Shown here: piece after piece, positions 55,011-61,107 of the stretch
Numbering within the stretch: the first letter of the stretch is position 1
Layout of the letters: each line of letters starts with the position of its first letter
NCBI GenBank assembly: GCA_000381605.1
Contig: KB906758.1
Span: 1 to 64,000, forward strand
Direction: 5' to 3'
DNA length: 64,000 bases
Origin: Acidobacteriaceae bacterium KBS 89
GTDB taxonomy: Bacteria > Acidobacteriota > Terriglobia > Terriglobales > Acidobacteriaceae
The notes under the pieces: generated by a model
Told to the model about the DNA's origin: nothing
The model's database searches: none
Seen by the model: the letters and a program-made list of their open reading frames with translations, nothing else
Translations under genes and position numbers: made by a program

Positions 55011-55121
55011 TATCTATAAGTTTAGCAAGGCGGGTCCGGGCGAACCGTCATTTCACTTCCCACGCTTCGAATTTGAGTTCGCCTCTGCCGGGTACGCCGG
55101 CACGACCGTCTGAAATCGCGC

Positions 55122-55604
55122 TCAGTTCACCTGTAATGATTCAACCAGTTCATGCTCCTCTGCCTTAGGCGCAGGCGCCGGTTCTCTTCGTATGTCGATG
55201 CTCCCTGTCAGGTAAGCTCCTTCCTCAACGGAGATGCGCGACACCACAACATCTCCATATAAGGAGCCCTCGCAGCGAATATCGAGATGATCACTTGCGT
55301 TACAGTTACCAAGCACCTCGCCGAGCACGACGATATCCTGGGCCGCGATGTTTGCCGAAACTCGGCCATTGCGTCCCACCGTCACGCGATCGTCCGGCAG
55401 TTCAATAGAGCCCTCGACCTTCCCTTCTATCCGGACCGATCCCGAGCCGGTGATCTCACCCTTGATGAGCAATGTCTTGCCGATCGTACTCTGAGCGCCC
55501 ACCGCAGACAGGGACGAACCTGACGTGGGAGCATTTGAAGGCCGCACCTGGCGAACCGGATCTGGGACTGAAGATGATGCGGCGTCGACACGCTGATCTA
55601 ACAT
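55122..55604 (-). CDS. Bactofilin (polymer-forming cytoskeletal protein)
   Basis: 160 residues. The central domain (about 38-140) is a right-handed beta-helix with repeats of G-x-V/I: IGKTLLIKGEITGSGSVRIE, GKVEGSIELPDDRVTVGRNG, VSANIAAQDIVVLGEVLGNC, DIRCEGSLYGDVVVSRISVE. Disordered, proline-rich ends flank it as in bactofilins. It forms filaments without nucleotide and can scaffold peptidoglycan enzymes or polar structures. AGAGGA precedes the ATG. No M23 peptidase gene adjoins. Confidence 0.92.
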   Translation of the reverse strand: MLDQRVDAASSSVPDPVRQVRPSNAPTSGSSLSAVGAQSTIGKTLLIKGEITGSGSVRIEGKVEGSIELPDDRVTVGRNGRVSANIAAQDIVVLGEVLGNCNASDHLDIRCEGSLYGDVVVSRISVEEGAYLTGSIDIRREPAPAPKAEEHELVESLQVN

Positions 55605-55972
55605 GAAATCCTCTATTCGCCCTTTGTGGCTGTTGGATTAGAACACCTGCCTAAGGCGCCACGTTACGAGATATTGCGGCCGCACGATATAGCATCTTTG
55701 GGTGAGAGTCGAAGGACATCTCCGATGCGCCATACGCATAGCACGGGCGCGGCTTTGATAGAACGGCTTGAAATCAATGACGAGGGGTTTGGGTTCAACC
55801 CCGAAGCACAACGCCCTCAGGCCGACAGTGCCCTTCAAGAGGCTCACCGATCATTCTTGAAGTCCCTCACATTCAGCAGAAGCGCTTCAACCTCGAAGGC
55901 TACGACTCGCTTTACGACAAGTGCGTAGAAGATTGGAAGGAAATCTACGGCGTGGATTACATGGGATGACAA
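55605..55972. other. Intergenic region with gene remnants
   Basis: No intact gene in about 370 bases. A frame from 55626 includes ERLEINDEGFGFNPEAQRPQ but has no homologous end, and the 3' part holds a separate gene tail (55841-55969). The region borders the repeat copy at 55973, consistent with a rearranged or degraded area. Confidence 0.5.
55841..55969 (+). pseudogene. C-terminal tail of an unrecognised gene
   Basis: In frame 2 the plus strand reads SPIILEVPHIQQKRFNLEGY and DSLYDKCVEDWKEIYGVDYM, then G and a TGA at 55967-55969. The composition is that of a real soluble protein end, but no start or domain is present upstream, where the frame breaks down. I do not recognise the family. It lies just before a repeat copy, so it is probably a fragment left by rearrangement. 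Confidence 0.45.
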
Positions 55973-56034
55973 GAGCGTGGCTTGGAAGCTGCCGAGTATC
56001 GCCGGACGTGGAAGACTCTGCTGGCTTTCGCGAT
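55973..56034 (+). repeat. Direct repeat copy 1 (5' end of an EamA gene)
   Basis: 62 bases agreeing with 58263-58324 at 59 positions. The reading frame gives RGLEAAEYRRTWKTLLAFAI, as in the intact EamA transporter. After this the sequence diverges: the copy is a truncated duplicate of the transporter's beginning. Confidence 0.9.
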
Positions 56035-56083
56035 CACTGCATGGGCCGATTTTCGGATTTGGCGTTTTCTTCTGGGCCCTGAG

Positions 56084-56677
56084 TCAGACTCTTTCTCTCT
56101 GCTTCATTGCAGCCACCAGATTTTGGCAACCCGAACCCCATTTGGTGATTGTCGTGATGGCCTGTGTGAATGGAATATCCAGACGATGCACGCGATCCGG
56201 AGTAAGGACGTAGACCGCTCCAGCCATCGGCGTAGGCACCGAAGGGACAAAGACGGTGAAACGTCCATCGTCAAGCTCTTCAATGATGAATCCGGGAACA
56301 AGCGCATCCTCAATCTCGATCAGCGCCGTATCCCAGGCTTTGTCCTGCGTCTCTCCCGCCAGTCGTTGCGTAAAACTTCGCAAGAGCGAGTAACCGGGAA
56401 TCTTCTGAAATAACGACCTGTCCAGGCGATTCTTGATCACCCGTCCCATTCGTGTGCGAACCGCAAGCCCAACAAAAAAGCAAACGATCAACACGAGGAT
56501 GAGCGCAATGAGATTTTCAGCGGGGACCGATTTCGGAAGCACCTTTGCCACAGGCGCCATCAGGCCTATGATTGACTTCATTGCTTTGAGGAGAAGCAGA
56601 CAGGCGAGGTAGACCGGTGCGAGGACAAGAAGGCCGGCGATTATCCGACCCATGAAAAATGTAAGGAGTTTTTTCAC
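56084..56677 (-). CDS. DUF502-family membrane protein
   Basis: 197 residues from a GTG start with GGAG 8 bases upstream. Two membrane segments lie at about 8-32 (RIIAGLLVLAPVYLACLLLL) and 55-75 (LIALILVLIVCFFVGLAVRT), followed by a soluble domain with IPGYSLLRSFTQRLAGETQD, LVPGFIIEELDDGRFTVFVP and SVPTPMAGAVYVLTPDRVHR. These are the marks of the DUF502 family, of unknown function, known in bacteria and plants. It is divergent from the lipoprotein gene and lies inside the segment bounded by direct repeats. Confidence 0.88.
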   Translation of the reverse strand: MKKLLTFFMGRIIAGLLVLAPVYLACLLLLKAMKSIIGLMAPVAKVLPKSVPAENLIALILVLIVCFFVGLAVRTRMGRVIKNRLDRSLFQKIPGYSLLRSFTQRLAGETQDKAWDTALIEIEDALVPGFIIEELDDGRFTVFVPSVPTPMAGAVYVLTPDRVHRLDIPFTQAITTITKWGSGCQNLVAAMKQRERV

Positions 56678-56942
56678 GCGACTACTCCAGTGTGGGATTG
56701 GAGAGACGGTTCCCGCTCATTGCCGGAGAGAGTGGAACAAAGATAAATGCAGTTTCTCGCGTGCGTCCTGAAGGCCGTGATACCCGGGGGGATTGTACCA
56801 CGGGCTTACCTTGAACGCGAATGGGATAGGATCAATCCGTTCGGATTTGTTGCTTTGGTGATCTTCCTGTTCCTGCCAGTAGTTTCAATGCCCGGGGCTT
56901 CAGCGATTGTGGCTATTTCAGTGACAGCGGAAGTTGTCAGAC

Positions 56943-58205
56943 ATGGGGTGTGCCATGTTACGACAGGGGCAACATGCGAAGACATCAATACGAGTTGCTC
57001 AATTGCTTAGCTGCGCGGCTTGTGGCCTGGCACTGCTGGCCCAGGGGTGTCTGTCTGGAGACACCAGAAAAGCCTCTTCGATAAAGTCGACTAAGAATGT
57101 GCAGTCGACCGCGCCGGAACTGAGTTCGCGGAATCAATCGATGCTGGCCCTTTATTCGGCGGAGATAGAGGTCGCGGCTGATCGAATTATTTCGGAATCG
57201 CCCTCGCCCGCCACTCAGAGACAGGCACTGGTATGGAAGGCCGAGGCGATTCCGGTTATGCAGACATCCATGTTGAACACGGATCCTGTCGCAGCGGTTC
57301 TCGACACATGGGCGTTCATTTTCCAAATGACAGCGTATATGGAACGGCCAGCCGTGAAACAGAAATTCGGCGAGTCCTATCCCGTTGTCGCCGAGACGCT
57401 GAGAAACATGGACGCCGAGATGGAGCAGCTTGTGCGGGTGGGTGCGCCTACAGCCAATGTGGCCGACTTGCGTCAGAGAGTCAGCGCCTGGGCGGAGGCC
57501 CATCCCATACAGGCCAGTCTGACAGGCCGTCAGTCGGCCGATCCAGATGTAATCCGGAAGGTTGAACAATCTGATTTGGGAATGACAACCTCAATCAAGA
57601 CGCTGGCGGAAGGTTTGGGCGACTTTACGGCTCGCCTGGACTCCTATAACGTTTACCTCCCCAGACAGGCGCGCTGGCAAGCCGAACTCTTGCTGACGGA
57701 TTTCACGCATGACCCGCAAATTAGCGCCGGTATGTCCAACCTGGCGTTGCTTTCAGATAGCGCAGCGAAGATATCAGGCAACATAGAACAGATGCCCGGA
57801 CTTGTGGATCAAACACGCAAGGCGTTTAAGGCGGATGTTGATAGCGAGCGGTTGTCCGCACAGGCCTTTTTCCAGGAAGAGATCTTGAGAATCCTGTATG
57901 CCTTGCAGCAGGAGAGAATTGCCACCATGGACGCCGTGCATGGCGAACGACTAGCCACAACCGCAGAGATTCGTGAGGAACGACGAGCTGCAATGGAGGT
58001 GCTTCGTGGCCAGGAAATAGCGATGATGAAGGAATTCGACGAGGTCAGCAAGAGGGCCATTCAGGACCTTGACACAAGGGAACGCGTTCTCATCAATTAC
58101 TTTTTCCTGCGCGCTCTCGGACTGATGTTGCTAACGCTGGTCCTGTGTTCTCTTCTAGCATGGGTTTTTCTGCGGCGATTTGTCCTCGCGCCTGGCTCTC
58201 GGTGA
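56943..58205 (+). CDS. Lipoprotein with long coiled coil and C-terminal membrane anchor
   Basis: 420 residues from ATG 56943; TTG 56934 and ATG 56955 are alternatives. The N-terminal segment LLSCAACGLALLAQGC is a lipobox (cleavage before the Cys). The mature part is mostly helical, with a long coiled coil near 310-380 (LQQERIATMDAVHGERLATT, then AEIREERRAAMEVLRGQEIA). It ends with a membrane segment (ALGLMLLTLVLCSLLAWVFL) and a basic tail. It is thus tethered at both ends, an unusual layout. No family recognised. Divergent from the DUF502 gene, with which it may function. Confidence 0.7.
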   Translation: MGCAMLRQGQHAKTSIRVAQLLSCAACGLALLAQGCLSGDTRKASSIKSTKNVQSTAPELSSRNQSMLALYSAEIEVAADRIISESPSPATQRQALVWKAEAIPVMQTSMLNTDPVAAVLDTWAFIFQMTAYMERPAVKQKFGESYPVVAETLRNMDAEMEQLVRVGAPTANVADLRQRVSAWAEAHPIQASLTGRQSADPDVIRKVEQSDLGMTTSIKTLAEGLGDFTARLDSYNVYLPRQARWQAELLLTDFTHDPQISAGMSNLALLSDSAAKISGNIEQMPGLVDQTRKAFKADVDSERLSAQAFFQEEILRILYALQQERIATMDAVHGERLATTAEIREERRAAMEVLRGQEIAMMKEFDEVSKRAIQDLDTRERVLINYFFLRALGLMLLTLVLCSLLAWVFLRRFVLAPGSR

Positions 58206-58232
58206 GCAACTTGTTGGTCTCTGGCTTACCGG

Positions 58233-59192
58233 ATGCGTCCTGAGGGCTACCTGGTTGATGAGGAGCGTGGTTTGGAAGTTGCCGAGTATCGCCGGACGTG
58301 GAAGACTCTGCTCGCTTTCGCGATTATCTATTTTGTATGGGGATCGACGTTTCTTGCGATTCGGGTGGGCGTGCATGAAGTCCCGCCGCTTCTCTTCGCG
58401 GCGCTGCGGTTTTCGGTTGCGGGAGTTGTTCTTTTCGGCTGGATGATTGCGCGAGGAGAGCCTTCGCCGAACAGGCAACAGTGGATGTCGGTACTGCTGC
58501 TTGGCTTTGTGATCTTTGTCGTCGACTATGGGCTGCTGTTCTGGGCGGAGCAGCGTGTACCTTCGGGGATTGCTGCCGTGATTTTGGCGACGATTCCGGC
58601 GTTCATGGCGCTTTCGGAGATTGTGTTTCTTCGAACGCAGAGGTTGACTGTTCGTCTGGCTGTGGCGCTGCTGATTGGGCTTTGCGGGGTGGCTGTGCTG
58701 ATGATCCCGTCGTTGAAACTTGGCGGTGCACCGATCGACAGGGTAGGCGCGACGGCGATCATCATTGGAGCGATGAGCTGGGCGGTGGGATCGATCCTTA
58801 CGCGCAAACTGTCACTTCCTCCGTCGAAGGTGATGAGTTCGGGAGCGCAGATGCTTGCCGGGGGACTGATGCTGGCGCTAGCCTCGGGTGCGCTGGGGGA
58901 GTTTCGGAGGTTTCATCCCGGAGCGGTCTCGCGCGGTGCCTGGTTTTCGCTGCTGTACCTGATTGTGGCGGGATCCATTGTCGGGTTCACTGCTTATGTG
59001 TGGCTGATTCATCATGAGTCGCCGACGAAGGTGGGGACTTATGCTTATGTGAATCCGGTGGTGGCGGTGATCGTTGGATATTTTCTGGGTGGAGAGGCAC
59101 TAGGGCTGCGAACGATTCTGGGGACTTTGTTTGTTTTGATCAGCGTGGTGGTGATCACGACTACGCGGGCGAAGAAGACGGTAGGGGCATGA
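58233..59192 (+). CDS. EamA/DMT-family transporter
   Basis: 319 residues with 10 membrane segments in two EamA repeats. First repeat: LLAFAIIYFVWGSTFLAIRV, PPLLFAALRFSVAGVVLFGW, GIAAVILATIPAFMALSEIV. Second: IGAMSWAVGSILTRKLSLPP, SLLYLIVAGSIVGFTAYVWL, GTYAYVNPVVAVIVGYFLGG with the typical E in the last segment. Probably an inner-membrane exporter of a metabolite. Its first 31 codons (58233-58325) include the repeat also found at 55973, so the start codon here could be a rebuilt one. Confidence 0.9.
   Translation: MRPEGYLVDEERGLEVAEYRRTWKTLLAFAIIYFVWGSTFLAIRVGVHEVPPLLFAALRFSVAGVVLFGWMIARGEPSPNRQQWMSVLLLGFVIFVVDYGLLFWAEQRVPSGIAAVILATIPAFMALSEIVFLRTQRLTVRLAVALLIGLCGVAVLMIPSLKLGGAPIDRVGATAIIIGAMSWAVGSILTRKLSLPPSKVMSSGAQMLAGGLMLALASGALGEFRRFHPGAVSRGAWFSLLYLIVAGSIVGFTAYVWLIHHESPTKVGTYAYVNPVVAVIVGYFLGGEALGLRTILGTLFVLISVVVITTTRAKKTVGA
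58263..58324 (+). repeat. Direct repeat copy 2 (inside EamA gene start)
   Basis: This is the copy that belongs to the intact transporter. It lies 2290 bases from copy 1; the three differences are transitions or a single transversion at 58271, 58279 and 58313. Confidence 0.9.
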
Positions 59193-59258: not shown

Positions 59259-59753
59259 TCAGCGAGTGCCGATAGTATCGATTTCTTTCTGGATTGCGAA
59301 TGATTCGAGGGTTGAAAGTGGAAGAGAGAGAAACAGACTAATTCTGCGATCGAGAATGGAGAATGCATCGCAGAACGCACAGTCGATCGCCTCTGGCGAG
59401 CCTTTGACTGCTGCGGGATCGGGGATGTCCCAATGAGCGGTCATGGGGTGTCCGGGCCAGATGGGGCAGACTTCGTTGGCGGCGTTGTCGCAGACGGTGA
59501 AGATGAAGTTGATGGGCGGAGCACCGGCGGCTGCGAACTCATCCCATGATTTGCTTCGCAGTCCGTCGATGGAGAGGCCGGCGAGCTGAAGCTGGTTGAG
59601 CGCCTCCGGCCGCACTGCCCCGGAGGGATGGCTGCCCGCGCTGTAGGCGGTGAACCTGCCTCCGCCTTTGTGGTTCAGGATCGCTTCCGCCATGATGGAG
59701 CGCGCCGAGTTTCCGGTGCAGAGAAAAAGAACGTTGTAGCGAGGGGTGGACAT
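59259..59753 (-). CDS. arsC: Arsenate reductase, low-molecular-weight-phosphatase type
   Basis: 164 residues from ATG 59753. The P-loop is LCTGNSARS with C12 and R18 (C-x5-R). The further redox cysteines C88 and C96 lie in FTVCDNAANEVCPIWPGHP, as expected for thioredoxin-coupled ArsC. YSAGSHPSG and WDIPDP also match. It reduces arsenate to arsenite using thioredoxin. It follows arsM by 11 bases on the same strand; both probably leave from the arsR-side promoter. Confidence 0.92.
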   Translation of the reverse strand: MSTPRYNVLFLCTGNSARSIMAEAILNHKGGGRFTAYSAGSHPSGAVRPEALNQLQLAGLSIDGLRSKSWDEFAAAGAPPINFIFTVCDNAANEVCPIWPGHPMTAHWDIPDPAAVKGSPEAIDCAFCDAFSILDRRISLFLSLPLSTLESFAIQKEIDTIGTR

Positions 59754-59764
59754 GGTTGGCAGGC

Positions 59765-60616
59765 TCACGCAGTAACGGCGGCTGGATCGCAGCACCCCGG
59801 CTCACAACATGGAGTGGTGGGCTTGGTGGCGCGGATGAAGGCGCTGATGAATTTGTCTTCGACCTGAGGGGCGATCTCGTCGACCGCGATGCCAGCCTCA
59901 GTGAGGAACTGTCGCGCGTCTTCGATGTCGTAGGTACGGGTTGGTTCGAGATCGATGTTCAAGAAGCCGGCGTCTGCCAGCTTGGCGCGGTAGTCCGATT
60001 CTTCGAGTGCTCCGGCGATGCAGCCTACCCAGAGCAGCATGCTTTGGCGAACGGAGTTGGGGACGTGGCCGCGGACGACGACGTCGGAGACTGCGAAGCG
60101 GCCGCTTGGGCGGAGTACGCGGAACGCTTCCCGGAGGACCTTTGACTTGTCCGCGGAGAGATTGATGACGCAGTTTGAGATCACGACGTCGACGGAGCTA
60201 TCGGGCAAAGGAATGTTTTCAATTTCGCCTTTGAGGAACTCGACGTTGGTGGCTCCCGCCTTTCGCTGGTTTTCGCGGGCGAGGGCGAGCATGTCGTCGG
60301 TCATGTCCAAGCCGTAGGCTTTGCCGGTTGGGCCGACGCGCTTTGCGGAGAGGAGAACGTCAATTCCGCCGCCGGAGCCGAGGTCGAGTACGGTCTCGCC
60401 GGGTTTGAGTTCGATGAGGGCAGTTGGGTTGCCGCATCCCAGGGAAGCGAGGACGGCTTTTTCGGGGAGTTCGCCCTTTTCCGAGTCAGCGTAGAGGTTT
60501 TTGGTGATGGGGTCGCAGCAGCGCATGGCGGGATCGCAGCATGCGGCGGCCGCGGTTTCTGTGACGGAGCGAGCGATTGAGCCGTACTTGTTGCGGATGT
60601 TTTCCTGCATTTCCAT
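59765..60616 (-). CDS. arsM: Arsenite S-adenosylmethionine methyltransferase
   Basis: 283 residues from ATG 60616, with GGAGG upstream; a longer open frame through to 61753 is not coding. SAM motif I is [10 protein letters not shown] (77-86). Cysteines C61, C149 (SNCVINL) and C199 (GCIAGA) match conserved arsenic-binding cysteines of the ArsM family; C26/C27 and C33/C34 form an extra N-terminal cysteine set and [10 protein letters not shown] lies at the C-terminus. It methylates As(III) to di- and trimethyl arsenicals. Confidence 0.94.
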
Positions 60617-60636
60617 GGTCGGGCGCCTCCAGTTTC

Positions 60637-60690
60637 GTATACGCCAAGACGAATGTATTGAAGTTTGAACATATCTGTCAAGGCGTATAT
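60637..60690. promoter_or_regulatory. ArsR-type operator region between arsM and arsR
   Basis: GTATACGCC (60637-60645) and GGCGTATAT (60682-60690) are the outer ends of two inverted half-sites. Reading the left side on the minus strand gives TTCGTCTTGGCGTATAC, and the right side on the plus strand gives TATCTGTCAAGGCGTATAT. The half-sites fit a winged-helix ArsR dimer, and the region should hold both divergent promoters. Confidence 0.7.
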
Positions 60691-60699
60691 TATTTTGCA

Positions 60700-61107
60700 A
60701 TGGCTCGAAGCGGACAATCTGTCGATCTTGCTCGCCTGTTTGCGGCTCTTGCCGATCCAACGAGGCTGCGGTTGCTGAACCTGATGAATGGGCGCGAGGT
60801 TTGCGTCTGCTACTTTGTTGAGATTTTGAAGCAGAGCCAGCCGAAGATATCGAGGCACCTGGCTTATTTGCGAAATGCGGGCGTGGTGTCGGCGCGGCGT
60901 GAAGGCAAGTGGATGCATTACAGCATCGAGCGGCCGGAGGATGGGGGGGCGGCGGCTGTTCTGGATGCGGCTTTGAGGTCATTTGAAGCGGACCGTGAGA
61001 TGCAGTTGGATCTCGCGAGGCTGGATAAGGCGTGTTGCGTTCCGCAGCGCTCGGTGACGCTACAGGGTGCGCCGTCCCCGATTCGATTGGAAGCGGAGAC
61101 GGCTTGA
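60700..61107 (+). CDS. arsR: ArsR/SmtB-family arsenic-responsive repressor
   Basis: 135 residues from ATG 60700; the frame extends further up but lies in the intergenic region. The winged-helix core is FAALADPTRLRLLNLMNG, EILKQSQPKISRHLAYLRNA and VVSARREGKWMHYSI. The metal-binding motif of ArsR is EVCVCYFV (C35 and C37), a variant of ELCVCDL. Arsenite binding would release it from the operator between arsR and arsM, so it controls its own gene and arsM-arsC. A further Cys pair (KACCVPQ) is near the C-terminus. Confidence 0.93.
   Translation: MARSGQSVDLARLFAALADPTRLRLLNLMNGREVCVCYFVEILKQSQPKISRHLAYLRNAGVVSARREGKWMHYSIERPEDGGAAAVLDAALRSFEADREMQLDLARLDKACCVPQRSVTLQGAPSPIRLEAETA

Follow-up and report, generated by a model that had tools for sequence, protein, structure and literature searches.

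The locus described here raises the question of how the beginning of one transporter gene came to stand on both sides of a foreign segment of DNA. The window, a stretch of 64,000 nucleotides from contig KB906758.1 of Acidobacteriaceae bacterium KBS 89, contains a pair of direct repeats of 62 bp, at 55973-56034 and 58263-58324 on the forward strand. The original prediction had described the two copies as identical at 59 of 62 bases and as encoding the same start of an EamA protein, and both statements were confirmed, with the coordinates exactly as claimed. The repeat comprises the 9 bases upstream of the EamA start, followed by 17 codons and 2 bases, and the copies differ at repeat positions 9, 17, and 51. 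The right copy forms the RBS region and the first 17 codons of an intact EamA gene, while the left copy, a truncated 5' end with the same RBS region and 17 codons, passes directly into unrelated DNA. Downstream of the 62 bp no similarity was found between the two copies, and an upstream extension of the similarity was not significant (its score was attained in 32 of 300 shuffles).

Two simple sources of such a pair were considered and rejected. When the left copy was used as query in a DNA search of its own genome, the right copy scored E = 2.3e-21. In a census of non-overlapping direct pairs (35-399 bp, at least 85% identity, spacing 200-8000 bp) covering 464 kb of the same contig, only three comparable pairs were found, of which the EamA pair was the sole one with more than 90% identity. 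This rarity, together with the E-value and the 59 matching bases, speaks against a chance match. A widespread gene-internal repeat was rejected as well, the 62-bp query having returned the right copy in its own genome and, in the genus search, the starts of EamA genes and otherwise short and weak matches.

The gene to which the repeat belongs is located at 58272-59192 on the forward strand and encodes an EamA-family transporter, in which two EamA stretches were recognized (Pfam EamA, E = 2.6e-40). Its start is probably the TTG at 58272 and not the ATG at 58233, because 13 of 14 relatives have ATG at the aligned position and in-frame stops occur upstream of it in 8 of 10 relatives (L045-L054). 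From the stop codon of the preceding lipoprotein gene this start is 66 bp away. Relatives with 64-79% identity are present in other members of the genus, and in all 14 for which the start lies on the contig the segment is absent from that position. Compared with these 14, the left stub has the base of 10 of them at repeat position 17 and of 12 at position 51, while the working gene differs at both; at position 9 the relatives have mixed bases. The three differences in 62 bases fit a donor and a recipient copy, and equally well plain mutation.

Between the repeats lies the putative inserted segment (56035-58262), the left junction of which (56034/56035) is set by homology to a second genome described below and the right junction of which we infer solely from where the right repeat begins. 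As originally predicted, the segment holds a divergent pair of genes for a DUF502 membrane protein and a lipoprotein, the former identified by Pfam and the latter by features read by eye in the translation, namely a lipobox (LLAQGC) and a hydrophobic stretch at the C terminus. The DUF502 gene (56084-56677, reverse strand) encodes 197 amino acids and matches PF04367 with E = 2.8e-7, its 30.8 bits exceeding the curated cut-off of 23.8. The family was found in 185 of 396 genomes of the phylum, and of the genomes listed, the 20 of the same genus other than the own one had no match. Judged from its sequence, the window protein is a divergent member of the family, scoring E = 4.3e-7 versus 1.8e-24 to 4.2e-23 for proteins in four genomes from another genus of the family Acidobacteriaceae. 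A divergent intergenic region (56678-56957) separates it from the lipoprotein gene (56958-58205, forward strand), which encodes 415 amino acids and has distant relatives in a few Acidobacteriota. In total, lipoprotein relatives were found in 8 of the 396 phylum genomes, including the own genome and a weak match in G117 with two internal stops.

A conserved DUF502-lipoprotein operon is not supported by these data. The window DUF502 protein had no match in the seven loci around lipoprotein relatives, although a DUF502 neighbour could have been missed in three of them, which are complete contigs of 3.4-8.6 kb, and in four genomes (G297, G127, G327, and G358) the DUF502-family match and the lipoprotein are located on different contigs. 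Among the family matches listed, G181 appeared with no position and G061 and G117 had no entry. Carriage by a plasmid or phage also found no support, as neither protein had a match in plasmids and the lipoprotein had none in phages. Searches of the PDB returned no relative of either protein, and the structure models were weak, with a mean pLDDT of 60.6 for the DUF502 protein and 50.3 for the lipoprotein, the body of which is mostly helical in this weak model. The predicted N-terminal lipid anchor and C-terminal membrane stretch make an envelope role likely for the lipoprotein. No recombinase gene was found in the segment, either among the translated open reading frames or in the Pfam and NCBIfam searches, and there is no inverted repeat of at least 6 bp between the outermost 60 bp of the segment ends. 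The G+C content of the segment is 54.3%, compared with a window mean of 57.4% (standard deviation 2.0); because this is only ~1.5 standard deviations below the mean, base composition alone does not mark the segment as foreign.

A second copy of the segment was found in Edaphobacter modestus DSM 18101 (G442). When 62 genomes of the genus were searched with a 375-base query carrying the left copy, this genome matched at 93% from query base 320, which corresponds to window position 56035. The homology spans window positions 56035-56999 at 89.5% and thus starts at the first base after the left repeat. Since the window sequence no longer matches to the left of 56035, this junction is one of the window genome, and E. 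modestus may retain more of the original segment past it. The shared DNA includes the DUF502 gene (89% protein identity), the divergent spacer with several indels (81% over ~300 bases of 56701-56999), and the bases that correspond to lipoprotein codons 1-14, interrupted by a 1-base indel, after which the two genomes diverge. Most of the lipoprotein gene is missing from E. modestus, which therefore offers no independent witness of the right junction.

The two copies of the segment stand at different sites. The E. modestus copy is flanked by genes read by eye as pheT and zapB, the window copy by the bactofilin gene and the EamA gene; no other window sequence matched the 19-kb E. modestus locus. 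The EamA repeat is absent from that locus, and the E. modestus genome gave no match to it at E 0.001 (40 of 59 first-look candidates scored). The proposed check of the edges of this other copy for a comparable repeat came out negative, the longest exact match between its two flanks being 9 bp. Therefore, the repeat is a property of the window site and not of the segment.

The pheT-zapB spacer was itself found to be variable. It measures 1463 bp in E. modestus (L098:8476-9938), 87-117 bp in 7 of the 16 other loci computed and 173-705 bp in the remaining 9. Compared with 29 other loci, the E. modestus spacer matched 11, the similarity being limited to ~135 bases leading up to and into zapB and to one short dispersed repeat. 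Because the matches are confined to these parts, the remainder of the spacer varies. With a length of 87-1463 bp across the genus genomes, the spacer seems to hold different inserts and looks like an insertion hotspot.

The similarity of the segment between the two genomes also greatly exceeds that of the genes used for comparison. The DUF502 coding sequences are 93.7% identical, with a dS of 0.10 and a dN of 0.053, while three other window genes, glyA and an esterase (both named by eye) and a hydrolase (NCBIfam), gave dS values of 1.51, 0.61, and 2.56 against their best E. modestus matches, for which orthology is not proven. The zapB-zapA stretch shows 72% DNA identity between the genomes. 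A dS of 0.10 versus 0.6-2.6 argues for horizontal movement of the segment. The dN/dS of ~0.5, with an intact frame in both genomes, suggests that the DUF502 gene is under weak constraint.

Edge queries and the DNA of 56700-58265 placed the segment in two of the 62 genus genomes; a third match, of 36 bp in G006 (E = 4.5e-4), was judged to be due to chance. The body of the DUF502 gene was found in none of 36 relatives from the genus, and neither protein occurred in 60 other genomes, 36 of them of the same genus, a set that does not include E. modestus G442. In a wider collection of genome contigs, a two-row DUF502 alignment used as query found E. modestus alone, and the single DUF502 protein used as query had no match. 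The patchy occurrence within the genus, the high similarity between the carriers, and the unrelated sites together show that the segment has spread horizontally. The earlier reading of the locus as an insertion is thereby largely supported, through one other genome, E. modestus: the second copy lies elsewhere, homology starts right where the left repeat stops, and the similarity of the segment far exceeds that of the three comparison genes. The suggestion that the insertion had duplicated its target is consistent with a repeat made of EamA sequence that is absent at the E. modestus site, and with the 14 EamA starts that carry no segment. That the insertion produced the duplication is the part that we only infer, because none of the 15 EamA loci of relatives showed the window flanks around an uninterrupted EamA start. 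None of these loci (11 + 4) shared neighbours with the window when compared with 12 other validly tested window proteins.

The surroundings of the locus were also inspected. Downstream of the EamA gene, at 59259-61107, we identified an arsC-like gene, an arsM-like methyltransferase gene (both named by eye), and an ArsR-type regulator (ArsR/SmtB by NCBIfam). Upstream, the bactofilin gene at 55122-55604 (region 55075-55716 including its upstream DNA) has a second copy in the same genome (C6), with 74% DNA identity. Two bactofilin copies each were also found in G034 and G018, and the gene neighbours differ. A stretch of ~110 bp upstream of the bactofilin start is conserved in all six copies and includes the block CTCACCCAAAGATG; it seems to be a promoter or leader that has been strongly conserved in a family apparently prone to repeated duplication. 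Searched against the 62 genus genomes, the DNA at 55716-55972, which separates the bactofilin upstream region from the EamA stub, gave only short matches (none above 48 bp, best E = 8.7e-4) and probably consists of decayed gene pieces. One frame resembles what we take to be a fragment of a glycosyltransferase. Searches of Pfam, NCBIfam, and PDB with these fragments gave nothing useful, and the best short genus match inspected lies inside a gene of another kind.

This apparently decaying stretch directly to the left of the stub is what would be expected if the left copy were what is left of a decayed second or duplicated EamA gene, with the segment merely lying in between. Such a history is unlikely, however. 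On the right the 62 bp stop abruptly at foreign DNA, the similarity extends significantly neither upstream nor downstream of the repeat, and the own genome holds no second EamA gene of the same type, the next match being 34% identical.

The position of the stub on one side and of a complete gene on the other also calls to mind a different class of elements. Certain integrative elements insert at the 5' end of a gene, whose severed start then remains as a stub on one side while the gene is restored on the other. The segment could thus be a small non-autonomous integrative element for which the 62 bp served as attachment site at the start of a gene that it rebuilds on integrating, with a recombinase acting in trans to move it, and its movement between species would agree with this. 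We nevertheless regard such an origin as very improbable: the E. modestus copy is located in an intergenic spacer, where it shares no attachment site with the window, carries no EamA repeat, and has no exact flanking repeat longer than 9 bp, and the segment contains no recombinase gene. It would be just as improbable to regard the segment as a non-autonomous mobile cassette that duplicates the start of a gene on landing so that the host gene is rebuilt, that can be lost again through the 62-bp repeats, and that is moved in trans by a recombinase or an uptake pathway. An ordinary transposon or insertion sequence finds no support, as the ends are not inverted and as 62 bp in the window against a longest flank match of 9 bp in E. 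modestus leaves no fixed short duplication. In general, a transposon or site-specific element is disfavoured by the lack of inverted termini, of a recombinase gene in the segment, and of a repeat at the second copy.

The remaining readings differ in the source of the second EamA start. Most likely, with a probability of roughly 0.62, an acquired segment of ~2.2 kb was inserted into the EamA start, and 62 bp of that start came to lie on both sides. The route that we consider most likely is recombination. The incoming DNA would already have borne a short, slightly different EamA 5' end beside the segment, and would have been joined either by a single crossover of a circle or by homology on one side and an illegitimate join at the other end. 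The EamA start, with its RBS and 17 codons, would thereby have been left on both sides of the DUF502/lipoprotein segment, the right copy leading into the full EamA gene and the left copy remaining as a dead stub. A donor with a differing EamA start explains both the anatomy and the 5% difference between the copies by known processes. A donor in which the segment adjoins an EamA gene is not known.

Comparable anatomy has been described elsewhere. In a study on E. coli, the PCR product that indicates partial duplication of the homologous locus was obtained from 56 of 60 clones, and 14 sequenced clones contained partial duplications of 109-950 bp, which the authors ascribe to a single crossover of a circle (PMC3240628). 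These integrants resemble the window locus in having foreign DNA between two copies of part of the target gene; they differ in that they were made in E. coli by plasmid conjugation and have duplications of 109-950 bp, whereas the repeat here is 62 bp and has no known donor (PMC3240628). Small variable segments provide a second likeness. In a study of bacterial microdiversity in three species, direct repeats were seen at the base of 10-18% of such segments (PMC2884548). They share with the present locus a short accessory segment, basal direct repeats, and no known mobile element, but most of their repeats are shorter than 30 bp, whereas the segment here is 2.2 kb and its repeat of 62 bp clearly derives from the interrupted gene (PMC2884548).

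The near rival of this recombination route is end joining at a staggered break with a long target duplication. The segment would have been captured at a double-strand break with overhangs of ~62 nt in the EamA start, and fill-in and end joining would have produced two copies that later diverged. A repeat that consists wholly of target sequence and has its 3' end exactly at the junction with foreign DNA agrees with such an event, as do the absence of the repeat from the E. modestus locus and of an inverted repeat between the segment ends. There is, however, no positive signature of it, and a literature search for such duplications yielded no paper. The copies moreover differ at 3 of 62 sites, and therefore the event was not recent or the copies come from two sources. 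Altogether, capture at a staggered break appears possible but clearly less probable than a recombination route.

The unusual mechanism that the length of the repeat had originally suggested was not borne out. The segment has no recombinase gene and no terminal inverted repeat, no long repeat flanks its second copy, and ordinary routes, either a single crossover of donor DNA bearing an EamA start or illegitimate joining, would give the same anatomy. By itself the locus reveals no new mechanism, and we consider it a cleanly readable and fairly ordinary scar of gene acquisition. It provides a well-resolved case of a soil acidobacterium gaining genes without a visible mobile element, in which comparison with another species fixes one junction to the base and the interrupted gene has been restored where it stood. 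A stub of a gene start beside foreign DNA may thus serve as a marker for finding similar events in other genomes.
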